DNA from: Thermococcus celericrescens
Lineage (GTDB): Archaea; Methanobacteriota_B; Thermococci; Thermococcales; Thermococcaceae
Direction of reading: 5' to 3'
DNA length: 44,793 bases
Assembly: GCF_001484195.1 (NCBI RefSeq)
Contig: NZ_LLYW01000007.1
Location: 1-44,793, forward strand
A program made the translations under genes and the position numbers. Within the stretch, counting starts at the first letter, position 1. The number at the start of each line of letters is the position of its first letter. Under the pieces are notes generated by a model that searched no databases, was not told where the DNA came from, and saw nothing but the letters and a program-made list of their open reading frames with translations. Shown here piece after piece: positions 3,882 to 12,507 of the stretch.

Positions 3882-4337
3882 TCAGTACCTCCTGACGTAG
3901 GTTTTGCTCTCGACTATTCGCCCGTCCTCCAGACGCATCACATCGACCCTTTCGAACCCGACGGTTTCCCTCTTGTATGCGATTAGATAGTCAATGAAGT
4001 CCTTGATTCTGTAGCGCGTTATCGAATCCTTCACGTACTTATGTTCGTACAGCAGAATGAGCTTGTCCCTGTGCTCTCCCAGCCACTTCTGGAGCCTTTC
4101 CCTCTCAGCCTTCGAGCGCGAGAGGGGGTTGATTATCAGGTACACATCGAAGTCGTCACTCTCAAACGGTGGGCCGATGTAGACGTCACCGTTCACCTGG
4201 AATGGAATGTATTCAGCAAGCACGCGCCTGCCATCCTTGCTCCAGGCATTGATGTATATTTTCGCAAGCCTCTTCCCGTCTCCAGTTATTAAAATGGCTC
4301 CCGAGTTCAGTTCGGCTATTTTCTTCAGCATGGTCAT
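3882..4337 (-). CDS. Uncharacterised protein, 151 residues
   Basis: I do not recognise this family. The product is a soluble, charged protein without a signal peptide or membrane segment. It starts MTMLKKIAELNSGAILITGD and is rich in beta-type hydrophobic alternation in its middle (YIGPPFESDDFDVYLIINPL). There are no cysteines and no obvious catalytic motif. A GTG at 4340, ATG 4337 and ATG 4331 are all possible starts; none has a strong ribosome site. The gene is divergent from the nucleoside importer at 4455 and its 3' end faces the ftsY sRNA promoter. Confidence 0.65.
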   Translation of the reverse strand: MTMLKKIAELNSGAILITGDGKRLAKIYINAWSKDGRRVLAEYIPFQVNGDVYIGPPFESDDFDVYLIINPLSRSKAERERLQKWLGEHRDKLILLYEHKYVKDSITRYRIKDFIDYLIAYKRETVGFERVDVMRLEDGRIVESKTYVRRY

Positions 4338-4396
4338 CACAAAAAACTTTTACTCTGAGGTTAAAATTCTTTCTCAAATTTTCGGCTTCCTGGGGA

Positions 4397-4454: not shown

Positions 4455-5741
4455 ATGAAGAAGCTGTTTAGCTTGTTTTTAATTGGCATCTTGGCTCTCG
4501 GTGTAGTGGCCAGCGGCTGCATAAGCGGCGGGGAAGAAAAAACCGGAATAAACATCCTCTACACGTACACCGGTTCATTCGGAGACCCTGCTAAGGGGAA
4601 GCAGGCGGCGCAGGCCCAGCTCCAGCAGGGCGCCTGGGTCATCTACCAGGTCGCTGGCGGTACCGGTCTCGGTGTCTTCGAGGCCGTCGGTGACTACCTG
4701 GAGGCCAACGACAAGAAGATGGGTCCTCCGTTCGCGCTAGGTGTTGACTCTGCCCAGGACTGGATTAAGCCGGGCGTTATAATAGCGAGCATGATGAAGC
4801 GTGTTGACGTTGGTGTTTACAACGCCGTCAAGCAGGCCGAGGAGAACCAGTTCAGGGGTGGTGTCGTCGAGCTCGGCCTCAAGGAGGGCGGTGTTAAGCT
4901 CTCAACGATAGAAGACGTCAAGGCCATGTTTGACTCCCTCCCGGCCGACGTCAAGGAGAAGAAGCTCCAGGACCTCGGCTTCGAGAGCGAGGACGAGCTC
5001 ATACAGTTCCTTGAGCAGACCAGAAATCAGGTTCCAGACTGGATCTGGGGGGCCGTTGACGACCTCCAGAACCAGATAGTCAACGGACAGATAATCGTTC
5101 CGAAGGCCACCTCCAAGGACCAGATTGAGCTCCTCAGGAAGGCCGACGACTGGAAGGCCATGGAGGAATACGCCAAGAACTGGAGTGCGAGCGAACCCAA
5201 GCCCGAAACTTACTTCAACGAGAGCCTCAACAGCAGACAGAATACGAAAAAGATAGCCATCGTCTACGACGTCGGCGGCAGGGGTGACCTCAGCTTCAAC
5301 GACATGGCCTACATGGGTGCCGAGAGGGCCGCCAAGGAGTTTGGCCTTGACCTCATCGAGCTCCAGAGCAACAGCGAGAACGACTACCTGCCGAACCTCA
5401 GGAGCCTCGCCAAGACCGGTGAGTACGACATCATAATCGCGGTTGGATTCATGATGACCAACGCGGTTAAGCAGGTCGCCCAGGAGTATCCGGACCAGAG
5501 GTTCGTCATCATAGACGGTTACGACCCAGAGATGCCCCACAACGTCCAGATGGTTCTCTTCAAGGAAAACGAGGGTTCAACCCTTGCGGGTGCCCTCGCG
5601 GCGCTGATAGCTCTCAACGACAACAAGGACACCATCGGTATCGTCCTCGGTATGGAGATTCCGGTTCTCTACAAGTTCGAGGGCGGCTACCGCTTCGGCG
5701 CCTACTGGGCCCTTGACTACTACGAGAACAACAAGCAGTGA
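4455..5741 (+). CDS. BMP/PnrA-family nucleoside-binding lipoprotein with swapped lobe order
   Basis: This is the substrate-capture lipoprotein of an ABC importer (PF02608, Med/PnrA/TmpC family; purine nucleosides in characterised members). It has a signal peptide with a lipobox-like VASGC and lipidated Cys22. In the usual family order the D-x-GG-x-x-D-x-SFN lobe comes first and the YTGSFxDPAKGK / VAGGTGxGVFEA lobe second, ending in a GxIxVP stretch. Here the second lobe is first (YTGSFGDPAKGK about 38-49, VAGGTGLGVFEA, GLKEGGVKLS, NGQIIVP about 210-216). A charged linker follows, then the first lobe (KKIAIVYDVGGRGDLSFND from about 265), and the protein ends at DYYENNKQ. Both junctions are in frame. 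All other importer parts follow downstream. Confidence 0.85.
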   Translation: MKKLFSLFLIGILALGVVASGCISGGEEKTGINILYTYTGSFGDPAKGKQAAQAQLQQGAWVIYQVAGGTGLGVFEAVGDYLEANDKKMGPPFALGVDSAQDWIKPGVIIASMMKRVDVGVYNAVKQAEENQFRGGVVELGLKEGGVKLSTIEDVKAMFDSLPADVKEKKLQDLGFESEDELIQFLEQTRNQVPDWIWGAVDDLQNQIVNGQIIVPKATSKDQIELLRKADDWKAMEEYAKNWSASEPKPETYFNESLNSRQNTKKIAIVYDVGGRGDLSFNDMAYMGAERAAKEFGLDLIELQSNSENDYLPNLRSLAKTGEYDIIIAVGFMMTNAVKQVAQEYPDQRFVIIDGYDPEMPHNVQMVLFKENEGSTLAGALAALIALNDNKDTIGIVLGMEIPVLYKFEGGYRFGAYWALDYYENNKQ

Positions 5742-5770
5742 TTCTTCTCCCCTCTTTTTGTTTCCCTTTT
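5742..5770 (+). terminator. Pyrimidine-rich terminator-like stretch between binding protein and ATPase genes
   Basis: The 42-bp gap starts with T/C-rich tracts (TTCTTCTCCCC, TTTTTG, TTTCCCTTTT), which resembles archaeal U-tract termination. Partial termination here would give more binding protein than transporter, a common arrangement. There is no hairpin. Confidence 0.4.
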
Positions 5771-5783
5771 GGAGGTGATAGGG

Positions 5784-7307
5784 ATGGAAGAGAAAACTCC
5801 AGTGCTTGAGATGCGGGACATCGTCAAGGTTTACCCCGACGGGACGAGGGCCCTCAAGGGGGTTACCCTCAAGGTTTACGAAGGCGAAATCCTCGGCCTC
5901 CTCGGCGAGAACGGTGCCGGAAAGACCACACTCATGAAGGTTCTCTTCGGAATGCTTAAGCCGACCAGGGGAAAAATCTTCCTCCGCGGAAAGGAGGTCC
6001 GCTTCAAAAGCCCAGAGGATGCCATAGCGAACGGAATAGGCATGGTCCACCAGCACTTTACCCTCGTTGAGGTCTTCAACGCTCTCGAGAACATAATCCT
6101 GGGAATGGAAGGTCACGGGCTATTCTCAAAGATAGACGTTGAGAACGCCAGAAAAGGGCTTCGGAAGCTCATGGACGAGCTGAACTTTCAGGTTCCGCTC
6201 GATGTGCCGGTTGAGAACCTCCCGGTTGGAGTTCAGCAGAGGATTGAAATCCTCAAGATGCTCTACCGCAACGTTGACGTACTCATCCTTGACGAGCCCA
6301 CAGCGGTTCTCACCCCGATTGAGGTCAAGGAGCTCTTCACGGTTCTCAGAAAGCTCAAGGAGCAGGGGAAGACGATAATCTTCATCAGCCACAAGCTCAA
6401 CGAGGTCATGGAGATAACAGACAGGGTGACGGTCATAAGGAAGGGAGAGGTCGTTGGAACGGTTAAGACGAGCGAGGCAACGCCACAGCTTCTTGCGAGG
6501 ATGATGGTCGGAAGGGATGTTGTTCTGAGGATTGAGAAACCTCCCAAGGAGCCCGGCGAGGTTATCTTCCGCGTTGAGAACCTGTGGGTGAAAGGCGACA
6601 GGGGTGAGGACGCGGTTAGGGGGCTCACCTTTGAGGTTCGCGCTGGAGAGATATTCGGAATAGCCGGTGTCGAGGGCAACGGTCAGAGCGAGCTCATCGA
6701 AGCCATAACCGGGCTTAGGAAGGTGGAGAAGGGTACGGTTTACCTCAAAGGCATTGATATAACGGGCAAGAAGCCGAGGGAGCTCTACGACATGGGAGTG
6801 GCGCATATTCCAGAGGACAGAACGCACATGGGACTGATCCTTGATATGAGCGTGATGGAAAACTCCATACTGGGGATGCACTGGAGAAAGGAGTTCTCCA
6901 GGGGAGTCCTCCTCGACTGGGACAAAGTTGAAGAGCACGCGGAGAGGCTCATCAAGGAGTTCGAGGTCAGCGCGCCGGGAACGAGGGCCCCGGTGAAGAG
7001 CCTGAGCGGAGGAAACCAGCAGAAGCTCATAGCGGCGAGGGAGGTCAGCAAGAGGCCGGATTTCATCATAGCGGCACAGCCGACGAGGGGTGTTGATGTT
7101 GCATCGACGGAGTACATCAGGAACTACCTCGTGAGGCTCAGGAACGAGGGCAAGGCCGTTCTGCTCGTCTCGGCTGACCTCGACGAGGTTCTGCAGCTCA
7201 GCGACAGGATGGCGATAATGTACGAGGGCCAGTTCATGGGGATAGTCAAGCCGGACGAGGTAACCGAGGAGCAGATCGGACTCATGATGGGAGGTGTTAA
7301 GGCATGA
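5784..7307 (+). CDS. Nucleoside ABC transporter ATP-binding protein (two NBDs)
   Basis: The product is 507 residues. The start ATG 5784 follows GGAGGTGAT at the right distance; an in-frame TTG at 5769 lies upstream of that site. The N-terminal NBD has Walker A GENGAGKTT, the LPVGVQQRIEI signature and Walker B LILDEPTAVLT. The C-terminal NBD has a degenerate Walker A (GVEGNGQSE, no Lys), signature LSGGNQQK, and AAQPTRGVDV in place of a Walker B. The asymmetry of one good and one degenerate site is normal for sugar and nucleoside importers of the RbsA/NupA type. The stop overlaps the permease start by 4 bp. Confidence 0.93.
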   Translation: MEEKTPVLEMRDIVKVYPDGTRALKGVTLKVYEGEILGLLGENGAGKTTLMKVLFGMLKPTRGKIFLRGKEVRFKSPEDAIANGIGMVHQHFTLVEVFNALENIILGMEGHGLFSKIDVENARKGLRKLMDELNFQVPLDVPVENLPVGVQQRIEILKMLYRNVDVLILDEPTAVLTPIEVKELFTVLRKLKEQGKTIIFISHKLNEVMEITDRVTVIRKGEVVGTVKTSEATPQLLARMMVGRDVVLRIEKPPKEPGEVIFRVENLWVKGDRGEDAVRGLTFEVRAGEIFGIAGVEGNGQSELIEAITGLRKVEKGTVYLKGIDITGKKPRELYDMGVAHIPEDRTHMGLILDMSVMENSILGMHWRKEFSRGVLLDWDKVEEHAERLIKEFEVSAPGTRAPVKSLSGGNQQKLIAAREVSKRPDFIIAAQPTRGVDVASTEYIRNYLVRLRNEGKAVLLVSADLDEVLQLSDRMAIMYEGQFMGIVKPDEVTEEQIGLMMGGVKA

Positions 7308-8350
7308 GCCTCCAGGGTGATCTTAGGGGTTACGTCAAGCCCATTGCCGAGAGCGTGCTCGCGATACTTATAGGCGCGTTCATAGGTGCACTCGTGCTGT
7401 GGTTCAGCGGCTACAGCCCAACCTCGGCCTATTACTGGCTGATAATGGGTTCCCTCGGTTCGACCGATGGGATAGCCGAAACCCTCAGCAAGTCCGCCCC
7501 GCTGATACTGACCGCCCTCACCTTCGCCATCGGGGCAAGAACGGGCTTATTCAACATCGGTGCCGAGGGAACGGTTTACTTCGGTGCGATAGCGGCTATA
7601 ATAGTCACCCAGTACCTCCAGAACCCTATAGCGGGCCTCCTCGCGGGACTGCTCATTGGAGCCCTGTGGGCCTTCCCGGCGGCCGTTCTCAAGGTCTACC
7701 GGGGAGTGCACGAGGTCATCTCGACCATCATGTTCAACTGGATTGCCTTCTTCCTAGTGAGCTGGCTCGCCGTGAGCGTCTACTACAACCCCAAGGACCC
7801 CAACAGCACACTTTCAATTCCACCGGGCGCGAGGCTTCCCCTCCTCGTAAAGAGCACGAGCCTTTCATGGGCCTTTATCATAGCAATCCTCTCCGCTGTG
7901 GTCATCTTCATCGTCATGTGGCACACCAAACTTGGATACGAGCTCAGAACCAGCGGTCAGAACCCGAGGGCGGCGGAATACGGCGGAATCAACCCCAAAC
8001 GCTCGGCGATATGGTCCTTCGTCATAGGCGGAATGACGGCCGGACTGGCCGGGGCCGGAATAGTCATGGGGACACCGCCGAGCTACGCGATAACCCAGGG
8101 ACTGGCCAACGTCTACGGCTACGGTTTCGACGGAATAGGCGTCTCCCTCGTCGGCAGGAACCACCCGCTCGGCATAATCTTCGCGGGAATACTCTTCGGC
8201 GCGCTGAGTGCAGGGGCAACCGCGATGCAACAGTTCGCGGGCGTTCCCCTTGAGATGGTCAAGGTCATCGAGGGAATCATCATCATAGCCGTCGCCGTGC
8301 CCGGCCTGCTGGACATATTCTCAAAGCTCCTCAGGAGGGGTGAGGCATGA
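7304..8350 (+). CDS. Nucleoside ABC transporter permease 1
   Basis: The product is 348 residues and is a BPD_transp_2-type inner-membrane permease, the larger of the two in BMP-type importers. Hydrophobic segments cover most of the length, with conserved family motifs TGLFNIGAEGTVYFGA and GVHEVISTIMFNWIAFFL near the first half and GLAGAGIVMG in the second. It starts with ATG overlapping the ATPase stop (ATGA) and overlaps the next permease in the same way, so the three are translationally coupled. The substrate is inferred to be purine nucleosides from family membership only. Confidence 0.92.
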   Translation: MSLQGDLRGYVKPIAESVLAILIGAFIGALVLWFSGYSPTSAYYWLIMGSLGSTDGIAETLSKSAPLILTALTFAIGARTGLFNIGAEGTVYFGAIAAIIVTQYLQNPIAGLLAGLLIGALWAFPAAVLKVYRGVHEVISTIMFNWIAFFLVSWLAVSVYYNPKDPNSTLSIPPGARLPLLVKSTSLSWAFIIAILSAVVIFIVMWHTKLGYELRTSGQNPRAAEYGGINPKRSAIWSFVIGGMTAGLAGAGIVMGTPPSYAITQGLANVYGYGFDGIGVSLVGRNHPLGIIFAGILFGALSAGATAMQQFAGVPLEMVKVIEGIIIIAVAVPGLLDIFSKLLRRGEA

Positions 8351-9258
8351 ACGAGACGATGGTGATCAGCCTGCTCCTCGGCTCGCTGGCGGCGATGGTT
8401 CCAATAGCCCTCACGAGCATCGGTGCGGTGATAAGCGAAAGGGCAGGAGTGGTTAACATCGGCTACGAGGGAATCCTGATGTTCTCGGCGTTCTTCGGGG
8501 CAATCTTCGCGGAGATGGCAGGCAACGGATGGGTTGGACTGCTTGGCGGGGCCTTCGTCGGCCTGCTCTTCGGCGCCCTTCACGGCGTCCTGACGGTATA
8601 CCTCAAGGGCGACCATGTCATTCCTGGTATAGGCCTCAACCTCCTCGGTCTTGGTGCCGTTGCCTTCGGAATAAGGGCCTACTGGGGAACCGCCGGCCAG
8701 CACCAGGTTCCAAGCAACGCCCAGATTAGTCCGCTGTGGATGGACGCCTTTGGAAACTCGCTCAGCCCCATGGTGCCGATAACGATAGCGATAGCCATCA
8801 TAGCCTGGTGGGTGCTCTTCAAGACGCCCTTCGGACTGAGGATAAGGGCTGTCGGTGAGAACCCAGAGGCGGCAGACGCGCTCGGAATAAACGTTGAGCT
8901 CTACCGCTTCACGGCTGTACTGATAGCGAGCGCTTTGGCGGGCGTTGCAGGGGCATACCTGAGCGTTGACTGGCTTGGAACGGTGACCAAGACGATTGCC
9001 GCGGGAAGGGGTTTCATAGCCCTCGCCAACATGGTCTTCAGCGGCTGGAACCCGGTTGTGGCACTTGGAGGAGCGTTCCTCTTCGGGTTCTTCGACAACT
9101 TCGCCATCTACATCCAGAACAACCCGTGGCTGGCTGGAACTATACCCTGGCAGTTCATAGCGACCCTTCCGTACGTCGTGACCCTGATAGTGGTCGCGGG
9201 CATCATCGGCAAGGCAAGGCCGCCGAAGTGGGACGGAAGGCCATACAAGAGGGAGTGA
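8347..9258 (+). CDS. Nucleoside ABC transporter permease 2
   Basis: The product is 303 residues, the smaller partner permease. The family motifs ERAGVVNIGYEGILMFSAFFG near the N-terminus and GLRIRAVGENPEAADALGIN in a cytoplasmic loop are typical of the YufQ/NupC-type subunit. It forms a heterodimer with the preceding permease in the membrane; the ATPase binds the cytoplasmic loops. The ATGA overlap with the upstream gene places it last in the operon, and a T-rich stretch follows. Confidence 0.92.
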   Translation: MNETMVISLLLGSLAAMVPIALTSIGAVISERAGVVNIGYEGILMFSAFFGAIFAEMAGNGWVGLLGGAFVGLLFGALHGVLTVYLKGDHVIPGIGLNLLGLGAVAFGIRAYWGTAGQHQVPSNAQISPLWMDAFGNSLSPMVPITIAIAIIAWWVLFKTPFGLRIRAVGENPEAADALGINVELYRFTAVLIASALAGVAGAYLSVDWLGTVTKTIAAGRGFIALANMVFSGWNPVVALGGAFLFGFFDNFAIYIQNNPWLAGTIPWQFIATLPYVVTLIVVAGIIGKARPPKWDGRPYKRE

Positions 9259-9331: not shown

Positions 9332-10324
9332 TCATTTCTTGAGTATGACCCCCAGGGCGACGCCAAGGACGATGCCGACGACCAGGGAGAGCGCCACGTA
9401 CCTTTCCACGTCGTCCCTCTGGACCGGCAGGATTTCTCCCGGCCTGCCGCCGAGGGCCTTAACCACCGCCGCGCTGTTCTCAATTAGAACCTCCGTGTAG
9501 GGCCTGTCGCTCCAGAAGACCGTTATCTCGGCGAAGGGCTTTCCGCTCTTGGCGGCGAGCTCCTTCGCCGCGTCCTTCATCTGGTCGGGGCTGTCGAGGG
9601 CGTAGACGATGATGTCTGCTTTCCTCGCTGTTGGAACCAGGTCGTCCACCCCGATTGCGGGCACTTCCTCCTCGGGCTTTATCGACGCTACCGCCTTTAT
9701 CCCGAGCCACTCAATCGCGTACTGGTCTGAGGGCATCTGAATTACAGCGGTGTGATTCTTGCCCGCGAGGGCTTGGTATGCTTCGACAATGGCATTTACC
9801 CTTTCTTCAAAGCTCCTGTATTCTGACTCATAGACGTCTGAGTGTACCGGATCAACGCTTTCAAGAGCCTTTTCCGTCGCCTTAGCCACGGCCAGCGCGT
9901 TGGTGGGATCGAGCCATATCCCGTGGGGGTTGTCCTTATCGTTGTACCAGTGTTCGGGGAGATAGCGGAAGCCCTCGCGCTTGTAGTCATCGAGGAAAAG
10001 CGCCTCCCCAGTTATTGTTCCCTCCTCCTTCAGCTCGGCTATCTTCTTCTCCACGGGCAGGTGGCCGCCGGTGGTTACTATCACGTCGGCTTTCCTCAGG
10101 AGTTCGATCTGGCTCGCGGTCAGCTGGTACTCGTGGGGATCCGCGCCGGGGGGAATTATGTAAACCACATCCACGGAGTCCCCGAAGGCGTCCTGAACTA
10201 TTGAGGCAATCGGGGCTATGCTGGTAACTATGAGGGGTTTTCCTGACGAGGCTCCGGCGAAGGGGATGAGCCCGGCCGCCGCGGTTAGTAAGATGAGTGT
10301 GATAATCAATCCTCTCGCCCTCAT
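9332..10324 (-). CDS. ZnuA-type metal-binding protein, membrane-anchored, no transporter partner
   Basis: The product is 330 residues with an N-terminal signal peptide (about 1-25) and a cluster A-I metal-binding fold. Candidate metal ligands sit in DPHEYQLT, TTGGHLPVE and NPHGIWLDPTNAL, the positions that carry the three His of Zn/Mn binding proteins. The C-terminus is a membrane helix (SLVVGIVLGVALGVIL) ending in KK, so it is anchored at its tail rather than by a lipobox. No ABC permease or ATPase for metals is adjacent, which is unusual. The metal cannot be deduced from sequence. Confidence 0.85.
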   Translation of the reverse strand: MRARGLIITLILLTAAAGLIPFAGASSGKPLIVTSIAPIASIVQDAFGDSVDVVYIIPPGADPHEYQLTASQIELLRKADVIVTTGGHLPVEKKIAELKEEGTITGEALFLDDYKREGFRYLPEHWYNDKDNPHGIWLDPTNALAVAKATEKALESVDPVHSDVYESEYRSFEERVNAIVEAYQALAGKNHTAVIQMPSDQYAIEWLGIKAVASIKPEEEVPAIGVDDLVPTARKADIIVYALDSPDQMKDAAKELAAKSGKPFAEITVFWSDRPYTEVLIENSAAVVKALGGRPGEILPVQRDDVERYVALSLVVGIVLGVALGVILKK

Positions 10325-10417: not shown

Positions 10418-12214
10418 ATGAAGCGACTGTGGGCTTTAATAATCCTCACGCTCTTCATCGGAGCGGCCGCGCCGCAGGTGACTGGCTACAATGTGACCGA
10501 ACGGGTGGGCGTCGAGATAAGCCCCAACTCGGAGCTGCTGAGCGTGGTCTACTACCTCGCCTTTGGCCGGAGCGATCCCTTCGTCATAAACCGCGACGGC
10601 TACCTCGATGAAGTTGATTCGTACTTCGCCTCTTACAGGAACCACCGCGCGGTTCAGATGCTGCGGGAGCACCTTGAAAACACCTCTTCCATCTCGGAGA
10701 GGGACCTTAGGCTGTACTACACCGAATACTACCTCCTTCTCTGCACGGAACCGCCTGAGCTCCAGCCCTGGGGAAACATCGGCGACCCCTGGACACTCGA
10801 CTTCATCGAGGCTTTGAGAGACTTCGCCAGGGAGAGCGACTTCATGACCTTTTACAGAACCCACCAGGATTACTACTGGGAGGACCTCGGGATATACGAG
10901 AACGCCCTCTCGCTTCTCCCGATGGATGAATTCATGGGCCGCTACACCGACGTTTCCAACGTTCGCTTCGAGTTCCTGCACCCGTTCCTGGTGGCAATAC
11001 ACGGCCACAGCTTCAACCCAGTCAGGGACGGCGTCCAGATATACGGGGCCGGGGGAATGGTGCCGCTCGTGAGGCGCGACCCCCAGAGGACGGCCTGGAG
11101 CTACAAGACGGCGAGGGACACGATGTTCGGCCTGCCCCTTAACATGGACTACGTGAACAACACGGGCCTCGACGAGCTTATCTACCTGGGCTTCGTCTAC
11201 CACGAGCTTGGCCACGACATTACCCTGCCCGGCCTCTACGCCAACTACGGCGACGCCTACGCGCTGGCCTACCTGGAGGAGGCCATAGAGGGGGACATGC
11301 CCTACCTCGCGCGCTACGACATTCACTTCTGGGACAGGACGGGCATGATATACGAGGGCTTCGCCGACGGCTGGCTGGACTTCGCGCTCTCCAACGTGGA
11401 CCCCGACTACGCGGCTCTGGCGGTGTGGCTCCAGAGGGCCTGGGGCGAGTTCTGGATAGACGAGGTGCTCCAGCTCTACGGCAAGTACGCGGCAATGAGC
11501 GTCCAGAACTCCGTTCCCCTTGACGACTACGTGGACGAGATGCTCGTGGATCTGAGAACCCTGATTCCCCCTGAGAATGCCGGGAAGCTCTACAGCGAGC
11601 GCGTCCCGGTGACCCCGCTGAGGGCCTTCGACAGGGGTGCGGTGGAAGGTAGGGTGGTGGTAGTTTACGGAACCCAGAACCCCGACCCCTCGGGGGTCGA
11701 GAGGGACAGGGAGACGGCCGAGGCCATAGCAGAGAACCTCAGGGTCTTTTACTCCCAGTGGGACGGGACGGTGGAGGTTTCGGTCAAGGCGGACGTGAAC
11801 GTCACCGACGAGGACATGGGATTGAACCTGGTGCTGGTCGGAGGGCCTTACTCAAACTCGCTCGTCGATGAGCTGGACGAGGGCTTTCCGCTTCGCTTTG
11901 TGCCCGTGGGAGACGACCACTGGGTTCTCGAGAGGAACCCCGACTGGGAGGTCTACTCCTACGTTCTAACCAGTAATGAGGAAGACCCCGTTATCACGGG
12001 AGAACTCGGCAACATCACGGGAACCGCCGTGATAATGGCCGTGAGGAACCCTTACAACCAGGGAAACTACATCGTCTGGGTGGCTGGGGAGAACAGGAAC
12101 CTGACGGCCCTCTTCCAGAACCCGACGTACTACCTCAGCAGCTACGAAATATGGAGTGAAAAGGGAATAGAAATGGGGTTCTACGTTCAGCCTGAGGCTT
12201 CAGGAACCTCGTGA
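10418..12214 (+). CDS. Secreted DUF4932-like protein with zinc-protease HExxH motif
   Basis: The product is 598 residues. ATG 10418 is preferred over the GTG just before it; GGGTG lies about 7 nt upstream. A signal peptide covers about residues 1-23. The middle of the protein carries YHELGHDI, giving H262-E263-x-x-H266, a gluzincin-type zinc site. A DAYALAYLEEAIE segment and YEGFADGW further on supply candidate third-ligand glutamates. The last 200 residues form a separate beta-rich domain (VVVYGTQNPDP, LNLVLVGGP, GTAVIMAVRNPY). The fold matches my recollection of DUF4932. Proteolysis is inferred from the motif only. It overlaps the convergent 12187 gene by 28 bp. Confidence 0.75.
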   Translation: MKRLWALIILTLFIGAAAPQVTGYNVTERVGVEISPNSELLSVVYYLAFGRSDPFVINRDGYLDEVDSYFASYRNHRAVQMLREHLENTSSISERDLRLYYTEYYLLLCTEPPELQPWGNIGDPWTLDFIEALRDFARESDFMTFYRTHQDYYWEDLGIYENALSLLPMDEFMGRYTDVSNVRFEFLHPFLVAIHGHSFNPVRDGVQIYGAGGMVPLVRRDPQRTAWSYKTARDTMFGLPLNMDYVNNTGLDELIYLGFVYHELGHDITLPGLYANYGDAYALAYLEEAIEGDMPYLARYDIHFWDRTGMIYEGFADGWLDFALSNVDPDYAALAVWLQRAWGEFWIDEVLQLYGKYAAMSVQNSVPLDDYVDEMLVDLRTLIPPENAGKLYSERVPVTPLRAFDRGAVEGRVVVVYGTQNPDPSGVERDRETAEAIAENLRVFYSQWDGTVEVSVKADVNVTDEDMGLNLVLVGGPYSNSLVDELDEGFPLRFVPVGDDHWVLERNPDWEVYSYVLTSNEEDPVITGELGNITGTAVIMAVRNPYNQGNYIVWVAGENRNLTALFQNPTYYLSSYEIWSEKGIEMGFYVQPEASGTS

Positions 12215-12507
12215 TTCTCTCCCTTCTTCCCGTTTCCGTTGCTCCTGATGTGGGGCTTTCCGATAGCTATTGTGAAGCCCTTGAAGCTGTCGTCCTTCCT
12301 GTTGAACTCTATCGCCAGCGGAAGACCGTTGTCCTCGTTGAAGACGATCCTCACGATGCGGGCGCGGGAGTGGTCGTTGAGGTAGTCCTCTTTGAGACCG
12401 TCGTAGTTCTCGAGCACCTCGTCTATGCTCTCGCTGTGCATTTCATAGATTTCCCTGGCGTAAACGCTGTGGTTCCTGATTTCCTGAACCTTCTTTTCCC
12501 GGTCCAA
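12187..12507 (-). CDS. Uncharacterised small acidic/charged protein, 106 residues
   Basis: I do not recognise this protein. The N-terminal half is helical and charged (MDREKKVQEIRNHSVYAREI), the second half beta-like (RIVRIVFNEDNGLPLAIEF), and the tail is low-complexity and hydrophilic. It lies 12 bp downstream of the phosphoribosyltransferase gene on the same strand, so it is probably in that operon. Its 3' end overlaps the convergent 10418 gene by 28 bp. Confidence 0.6.
   Translation of the reverse strand: MDREKKVQEIRNHSVYAREIYEMHSESIDEVLENYDGLKEDYLNDHSRARIVRIVFNEDNGLPLAIEFNRKDDSFKGFTIAIGKPHIRSNGNGKKGENHEVPEASG

Follow-up and report, generated by a model that had tools for sequence, protein, structure and literature searches.

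NupD (TK0657) of Thermococcus kodakarensis is a putative nucleoside-binding protein, supported by genetic evidence. A report of October 2025 (PMC12628685) names it and presents an AlphaFold3 model in which, compared with PnrA, it has a 'flipped domain arrangement', the N- and C-terminal regions of NupD corresponding to the C- and N-terminal regions of PnrA. When the mutant nupD was deleted in an evolved T. kodakarensis strain, the same report found slower growth on adenosine or uridine and none on guanosine, inosine or cytidine. The glucose-binding TpMglB-2 (Tp0684) of Treponema pallidum, termed 'Type Ic', was likewise described as a type I binding lipoprotein with a natural circular permutation, in which the cut lies in the N-lobe, the order of the C-lobe is unaffected, both ends are in one lobe, and the chain crosses the hinge a fourth time (PMC4990184).

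We analyzed a stretch of 44,793 nucleotides from Thermococcus celericrescens, hereafter the window (assembly GCF_001484195.1, contig NZ_LLYW01000007.1). The open reading frame at 4455..5741 (+) encodes 428 amino acids from an ATG start in one open frame, and its product is a lipoprotein of the BMP/PnrA type (PF02608). The features of the locus were as follows.

3882..4340 (-), left flanking gene o3882; its DNA is 98% identical to that of normal-order G004 and lies outside the exchanged segment.
4455..4517 (+), signal peptide (residues 1-21); its DNA is 99% identical to the normal-order gene of G095.
4518..4547 (+), CISGGEEKTG, made up of the lipobox Cys22 and a short spacer; probable left crossover point of the exchanged cassette, from sister-species comparisons.
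4548..5189 (+), canonical second part of BMP/PnrA, here first (about residues 32-245), from Pfam and PDB matches.
5190..5246 (+), new linker S246-T264 from the canonical C-terminus to the canonical N-terminus; gap-free in 21 permuted sequences.
5247..5738 (+), canonical first part of BMP/PnrA, here last (residues 265-428), KKIAIVYDVGGRGDLSFND...WALDYYENNKQ, from Pfam and PDB matches.
5769..7307 (+), NupA-like ABC ATPase, a member of the permuted operon clade.
7304..8350 (+), NupB-like permease (BPD_transp_2), from Pfam and locus comparison.
8347..9258 (+), NupC-like permease (BPD_transp_2); putative right crossover just 3' of the gene (~9250).
9332..10324 (-), znuA-like metal-binding protein, right flanking gene, which follows normal-order relatives again.

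The Pfam Bmp profile matched the protein in two stretches, with a score of 172.9 bits against a cut-off of 24.1, and the best of these placed residues 268-416 on profile positions 4-149. A six-frame scan of the genome with the same profile placed nucleotides 4548-4958 on profile positions 156-284 (E 1e-17) and 5256-5702 on positions 4-149 (E 5e-32), values that exclude chance for either half. Both halves of the family were thus matched above the gathering score, and profile positions 156-284 preceded 4-149, the reverse of the normal N-to-C order. Residues 51-211 of PDB 4pev aligned with residues 263-418, and residues 218-395 of 4pev with residues 30-215; the aligned solved family members, such as 4pev, show the opposite order to this open reading frame. 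These matches confirmed the claim of an earlier sequence-only reading of this DNA that the two halves of a PF02608 protein are reversed here.

Further details of that reading also held. The canonical second part (YTYTGSFGDPAKGK...VAGGTG) starts right behind the lipobox, at about residue 32 after C22, and contains the motifs YTYTGSF, VAGGTG, GVDS, MMKRVD and GQIIVP, followed by the canonical C-terminal tail ...MEEYAKNW. GQIIVP, the canonical end motif, is found mid-protein at residues 211-216. The tail is retained in the permuted protein with the linker directly after it, and the end of a normal-order relative (...MEELAKEWESS at locus L038) marks how far the canonical tail reaches. The core of the linker was conserved in the alignment of permuted sequences. 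The canonical first part begins with KKIAIVYDVGGRGDLSFN at residue 265 and runs to the end of the protein, ...YYENNKQ. A genome search detected no second copy of the gene in the window's genome, and no additional half-matches, as from a residual second copy beside the gene, were present within the loci fetched. Judged from its sequence, the product is a permuted PF02608 derivative, homologous throughout, rather than a typical family member.

The window protein is an orthologue of NupD (TK0657), and the permutation as such is already known. Genome G011 appears to be T. kodakarensis KOD1, as SNP positions 559628 and 559861, given in PMC12628685, lie inside its permuted gene; G011 falls in the permuted clade, carries the gene in the same slot, and shares the permuted order and the operon with the window. 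Lys117, altered in the evolved T. kodakarensis strain according to that report, corresponds to K115 of the window protein (MMKRVD). Residues D272, D278, F281, N282, F42, D98 and K115 of the nucleoside pocket were invariant in the alignment of the permuted clade, these positions being mapped by motif (DxGG..D.SFN, the Phe of YTGSF, the Asp of GVD and the Lys of SxxK) to BmpA of PMC13325309. The protein therefore carries the pocket residues of PF02608, and its gene adjoins an ATPase and two BPD_transp_2 permeases, the genomic context of the family. By analogy with T. kodakarensis, the protein likely captures nucleosides for NupABC.

To describe the fold, AF2 models were compared. The permuted protein (window 4518-5738) gave a pLDDT of 88.3 and a pTM of 0.88, and a normal-order orthologue gave 87.8 and 0.85, respectively. 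Structure prediction had been proposed as a check in the sequence-only reading, and the models contained the same elements in rotated order; Foldseek aligned 2fqw with only half of the permuted model, at a TM of 0.45 over 154 columns, versus 0.82 (by target) for the normal-order model. Such a low match is expected for a permutation because Foldseek aligns in sequence order. In the normal-order model, the break falls after helix 175-199 and ahead of strand 206-211. In BmpA, the N-lobe comprises residues 8-115 and 243-269, and the C-lobe residues 116-242 and 270-322 (PMC13325309). With lobes assigned by motif mapping from BmpA rather than from atomic coordinates, the first helix and second strand of the C-lobe would flank the cut, placing it inside this lobe; this corrects the earlier equation of the two sequence halves with the two structural lobes. 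The chain would then pass through C-lobe, N-lobe, C-lobe, linker, N-lobe and C-lobe, with four crossings between lobes versus three in the normal form. Given the position of the break, linker S246-T264 would provide the fourth crossing. Both new ends would lie in the C-lobe, and the lipid anchor would shift from the N-lobe to the C-lobe.

The best fold match of the permuted model was PDB 5er3, a solute-binding protein of Rhodopirellula baltica (TM 0.62 by target length, 419 columns, 11% identity). It was the only top match with TM >0.5 spanning nearly the whole permuted model, and it was not among the top 50 fold matches of the normal-order model. These model comparisons suggest that 5er3 may represent a further natural permutation among type I binding proteins; an open-access search found no literature on it.

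The distribution of the two forms was surveyed in 94 Thermococcaceae genomes, comprising 61 of Thermococcus and 33 of five sister genera. The comparison of domain order with Thermococcus homologues, recommended in the sequence-only reading, revealed full-length permuted genes in 21 of the 61 Thermococcus genomes, the window's included, and a partial one in G103, where a contig end interrupts the gene; the remaining Thermococcus genomes had normal order only or no copy. The full-length homologues in the 20 other genomes, several of them closed, were collinear with the window protein, and searches of relatives gave identities of 79-96% for such homologues. The same order in these genomes supports a gene-level circular permutation, in frame and with the signal peptide kept at the new front. 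None of the 33 genomes of sister genera carried the permuted form, showing only normal order or no copy. A Pfam scan of 115 genomes of the phylum gave the same split. The permuted protein is kept in about a third of the sampled Thermococcus genomes. One 53%-complete bin, G006, had nup operons of both forms, each on its own contig (L049 and L087); this bin is probably a mixture of two species and was not used as a case of both operons in one genome.

Among bacteria, for which plasmids were sampled, a tblastn search was used to look for permuted BMP genes, and all three single-gene loci inspected (L177-L179) had normal order. A Paroceanicella profunda plasmid (L180:1-1665) carried two BMP genes in tandem, and the second half of one together with the first half of the next matched the permuted protein collinearly. 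A permutation could arise from genes arranged in this way. In the relative G040, on contig C1, L078:8340-11465 (+) encodes a protein of 1042 amino acids in which a BMP/PnrA domain of normal order is joined to DUF7662 and a Ser/Thr kinase domain. The joint is a Thr/Ser-rich stretch with an apparent membrane span, and the Pfam scores were 183.6 bits for Bmp and 161.7 bits for Pkinase. From its domains, the product is likely an archaeal nucleoside-sensing receptor kinase. The adjoining segments, L078:3294-7840 and 11548-12504 (+), contain a fusion of SBP_bac_5 and Pkinase (1268 aa), a PP2C phosphatase and a Band_7 protein, and by gene content the neighbourhood is possibly a signalling cluster.

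Permuted and normal genes were found to share one slot, FtsY< o3882< [bmp]> ATPase> permease> permease> znuA<. The sequence-only reading had counted normal order at this locus in related genomes against a permutation. Such relatives were indeed found (G004, G031, G013 and G034), but the permutation stands, because the permuted and the normal version represent alternative alleles at one locus. The ABC genes divided according to form, permuted or normal, whereas the flanking genes did not. Identity to the window's ATPase was 80-95% in permuted versus 75-82% in normal-order genomes of Thermococcus and the sister genera; the corresponding values were 71-93% versus 58-69% for the first permease and 83-97% versus 64-73% for the second. 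In G039 a contig end truncates the second permease, and values for G023 and the distant g20 genus were below these ranges. On the left, o3882 of the window was 93-99% identical in normal-order G001, G004, G013, G031 and G034, the closest genomes by EF-2. Three consecutive small hydrophobic open reading frames, at least two of them mutually similar, lie beside FtsY at 1345-2805 of the window, and their copy number and divergence vary in related genomes.

At the DNA level, the window was a mosaic of its relatives. Up to ~4345, within and around o3882, it was 94-98% identical to normal-order relatives, and between 4350 and 4541 its identity was 99-100% with G040, a permuted genome, and 94-99% with the normal-order G095. 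The segment from the mature protein on to ~9250 was 84-91% identical to permuted G040 versus 67-79% to normal-order relatives. On the 3' side of 9250, identity to normal-order G031 was ~90% for ~300 bp, and across the whole of znuA it was 84%. Signal-peptide DNA was 99, 96 and 90% identical within the sister pairs G040/G095, G005/G015 and G036/G003, respectively, and identity fell to 75-78% in the mature part. These profiles suggest that the left crossover in sister pairs is at the lipobox Cys codon, with the host retaining its own signal peptide, and that the exchanged unit would be the mature binding protein together with its transporter. Homologous recombination can enter at the signal peptide, beyond which the two forms are no longer collinear.

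Phylogenetic trees recovered the permuted BMP proteins (22 permuted rows) as a single clade, and likewise the NupABC genes of the permuted form (19 permuted rows), both with 100/100 support. The permuted form originated once. Mapping the form on a DNA tree of EF-2, a single marker that may itself recombine, required ~11 changes, at least eight of them forced by well-supported branches. The sister pairs G005/G015, G036/G003 and G093/G024 were opposite in form, and permuted G011 grouped with normal-order G021 and G042. One origin with ~11 changes indicates that the cassette was swapped between species. The mean pairwise dN/dS of the permuted genes was ~0.10, and the permuted protein is under purifying selection. 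In the NupABC tree, the permuted clade lay outside the normal-order operons of all genera except g20 (support 96/89), but an AU test did not reject its grouping with Thermococcus normal-order operons (p 0.06). The tree thus suggests, without reaching significance, that the permuted operon originated outside all operons of the Thermococcus type. The BMP protein tree gave no resolved sister of the permuted clade.

Taken together, it is highly probable that the gene encodes the nucleoside-binding lipoprotein of a NupDABC importer in a circularly permuted form, with a single origin and swapping between species at one locus. The permuted form would most likely have arisen once through tandem duplication, fusion and loss of the outer halves, although no duplication intermediate was found in the genomes surveyed. 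The permuted protein would still close on the nucleoside in the usual pocket and deliver it to its own NupBC permeases. DNA mosaics and trees suggest that the mature permuted gene and NupABC were exchanged for the normal-order version by homologous recombination, with crossovers that would fall 3' of the second permease and in the signal-peptide region, where collinear homology ends ahead of the break. We propose, tentatively and at less than even odds, a wider reading in which the permuted binding protein and its cognate importer form one allele that repeatedly replaces the normal-order allele through crossovers at the lipobox, with the re-anchoring at the C-lobe and the fourth strap under selection.

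A rival reading, in which the permutation is adaptive, with the C-lobe anchor and fourth crossing altering the open-closed balance or permease docking and selection driving replacement, is rather unlikely. The matching clades of the permuted protein and its permeases, the linker without gaps and the repeated spread on the EF-2 tree are consistent with it, but collinear flanking homology permits exchange without any advantage, the pocket residues are unchanged, and TpMglB-2, also permuted, shows no obvious benefit (PMC4990184). The mosaic might instead reflect two ancient paralogous operons in one ancestor, lost alternately without exchange between species, as the deep branching of the permuted operon and the missing sister of its clade could suggest. 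We regard this as improbable, since both forms occupy the same slot, two full nup operons occurred in no sampled genome except the probably mixed bin G006, and sharp mosaics, in which opposite forms carry signal peptides that are 96-99% identical, need recombination. Independent permutations in several Thermococcus lineages would account for the patchy distribution on the EF-2 tree, but are very improbable in view of the 100/100 clades of BMP and NupABC with the same junctions and linker length. An assembly artefact joining the halves of a normal gene wrongly, raised by the sequence-only reading and conceivable in a 73-contig draft, was ruled out in practice by the same full-length order in 20 other genomes, including the single-contig chromosomes of G005, G011, G033, G035 and G036, and by the independent description of a flipped TK0657 in PMC12628685.

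Natural circular permutations are rare. Because the two forms of a protein mostly occur in distant lineages, the functional cost or benefit of a permutation can seldom be tested. In Thermococcus, both forms occur at one locus with ~70-75% identity and were swapped repeatedly among close, partly culturable species, including T. kodakarensis with its genetics. Allele replacement could therefore be used to test directly the effects of fold topology, of the position of the lipid anchor and of the matching of binding protein and permease. As far as our open-access literature search extended, the shared locus with matching NupABC clades, the single origin with swapping, the lipobox crossover and the predicted cut inside the C-lobe, with its expected shift of the lipid anchor and fourth crossing, are new.

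Compared with known systems, NupD has the same permuted order and NupDABC operon as the window; PMC12628685, in its accessible part, treats one species and does not discuss normal-order relatives in the slot, exchange, the position of the break or a fourth crossing. PnrA, TmpC and BmpA (PF02608; PDB 2fqw, 6y9u, 7x0r and 4pev) are homologous to the window protein in both halves and share its pocket motifs and operon type, but differ in having normal order, three lobe crossings and an N-lobe anchor. TpMglB-2, like the window protein, is a permuted type I lipoprotein; its placement of both ends in one lobe and its fourth crossing are features predicted for the window protein. The N-lobe cut that characterizes Type Ic is absent from the window protein, whose cut appears to lie within C-lobe elements, the mirror of that in TpMglB-2. 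Because the cuts are mirrored and the families differ, the permutations of TpMglB-2 and of the Thermococcus protein would be independent events.
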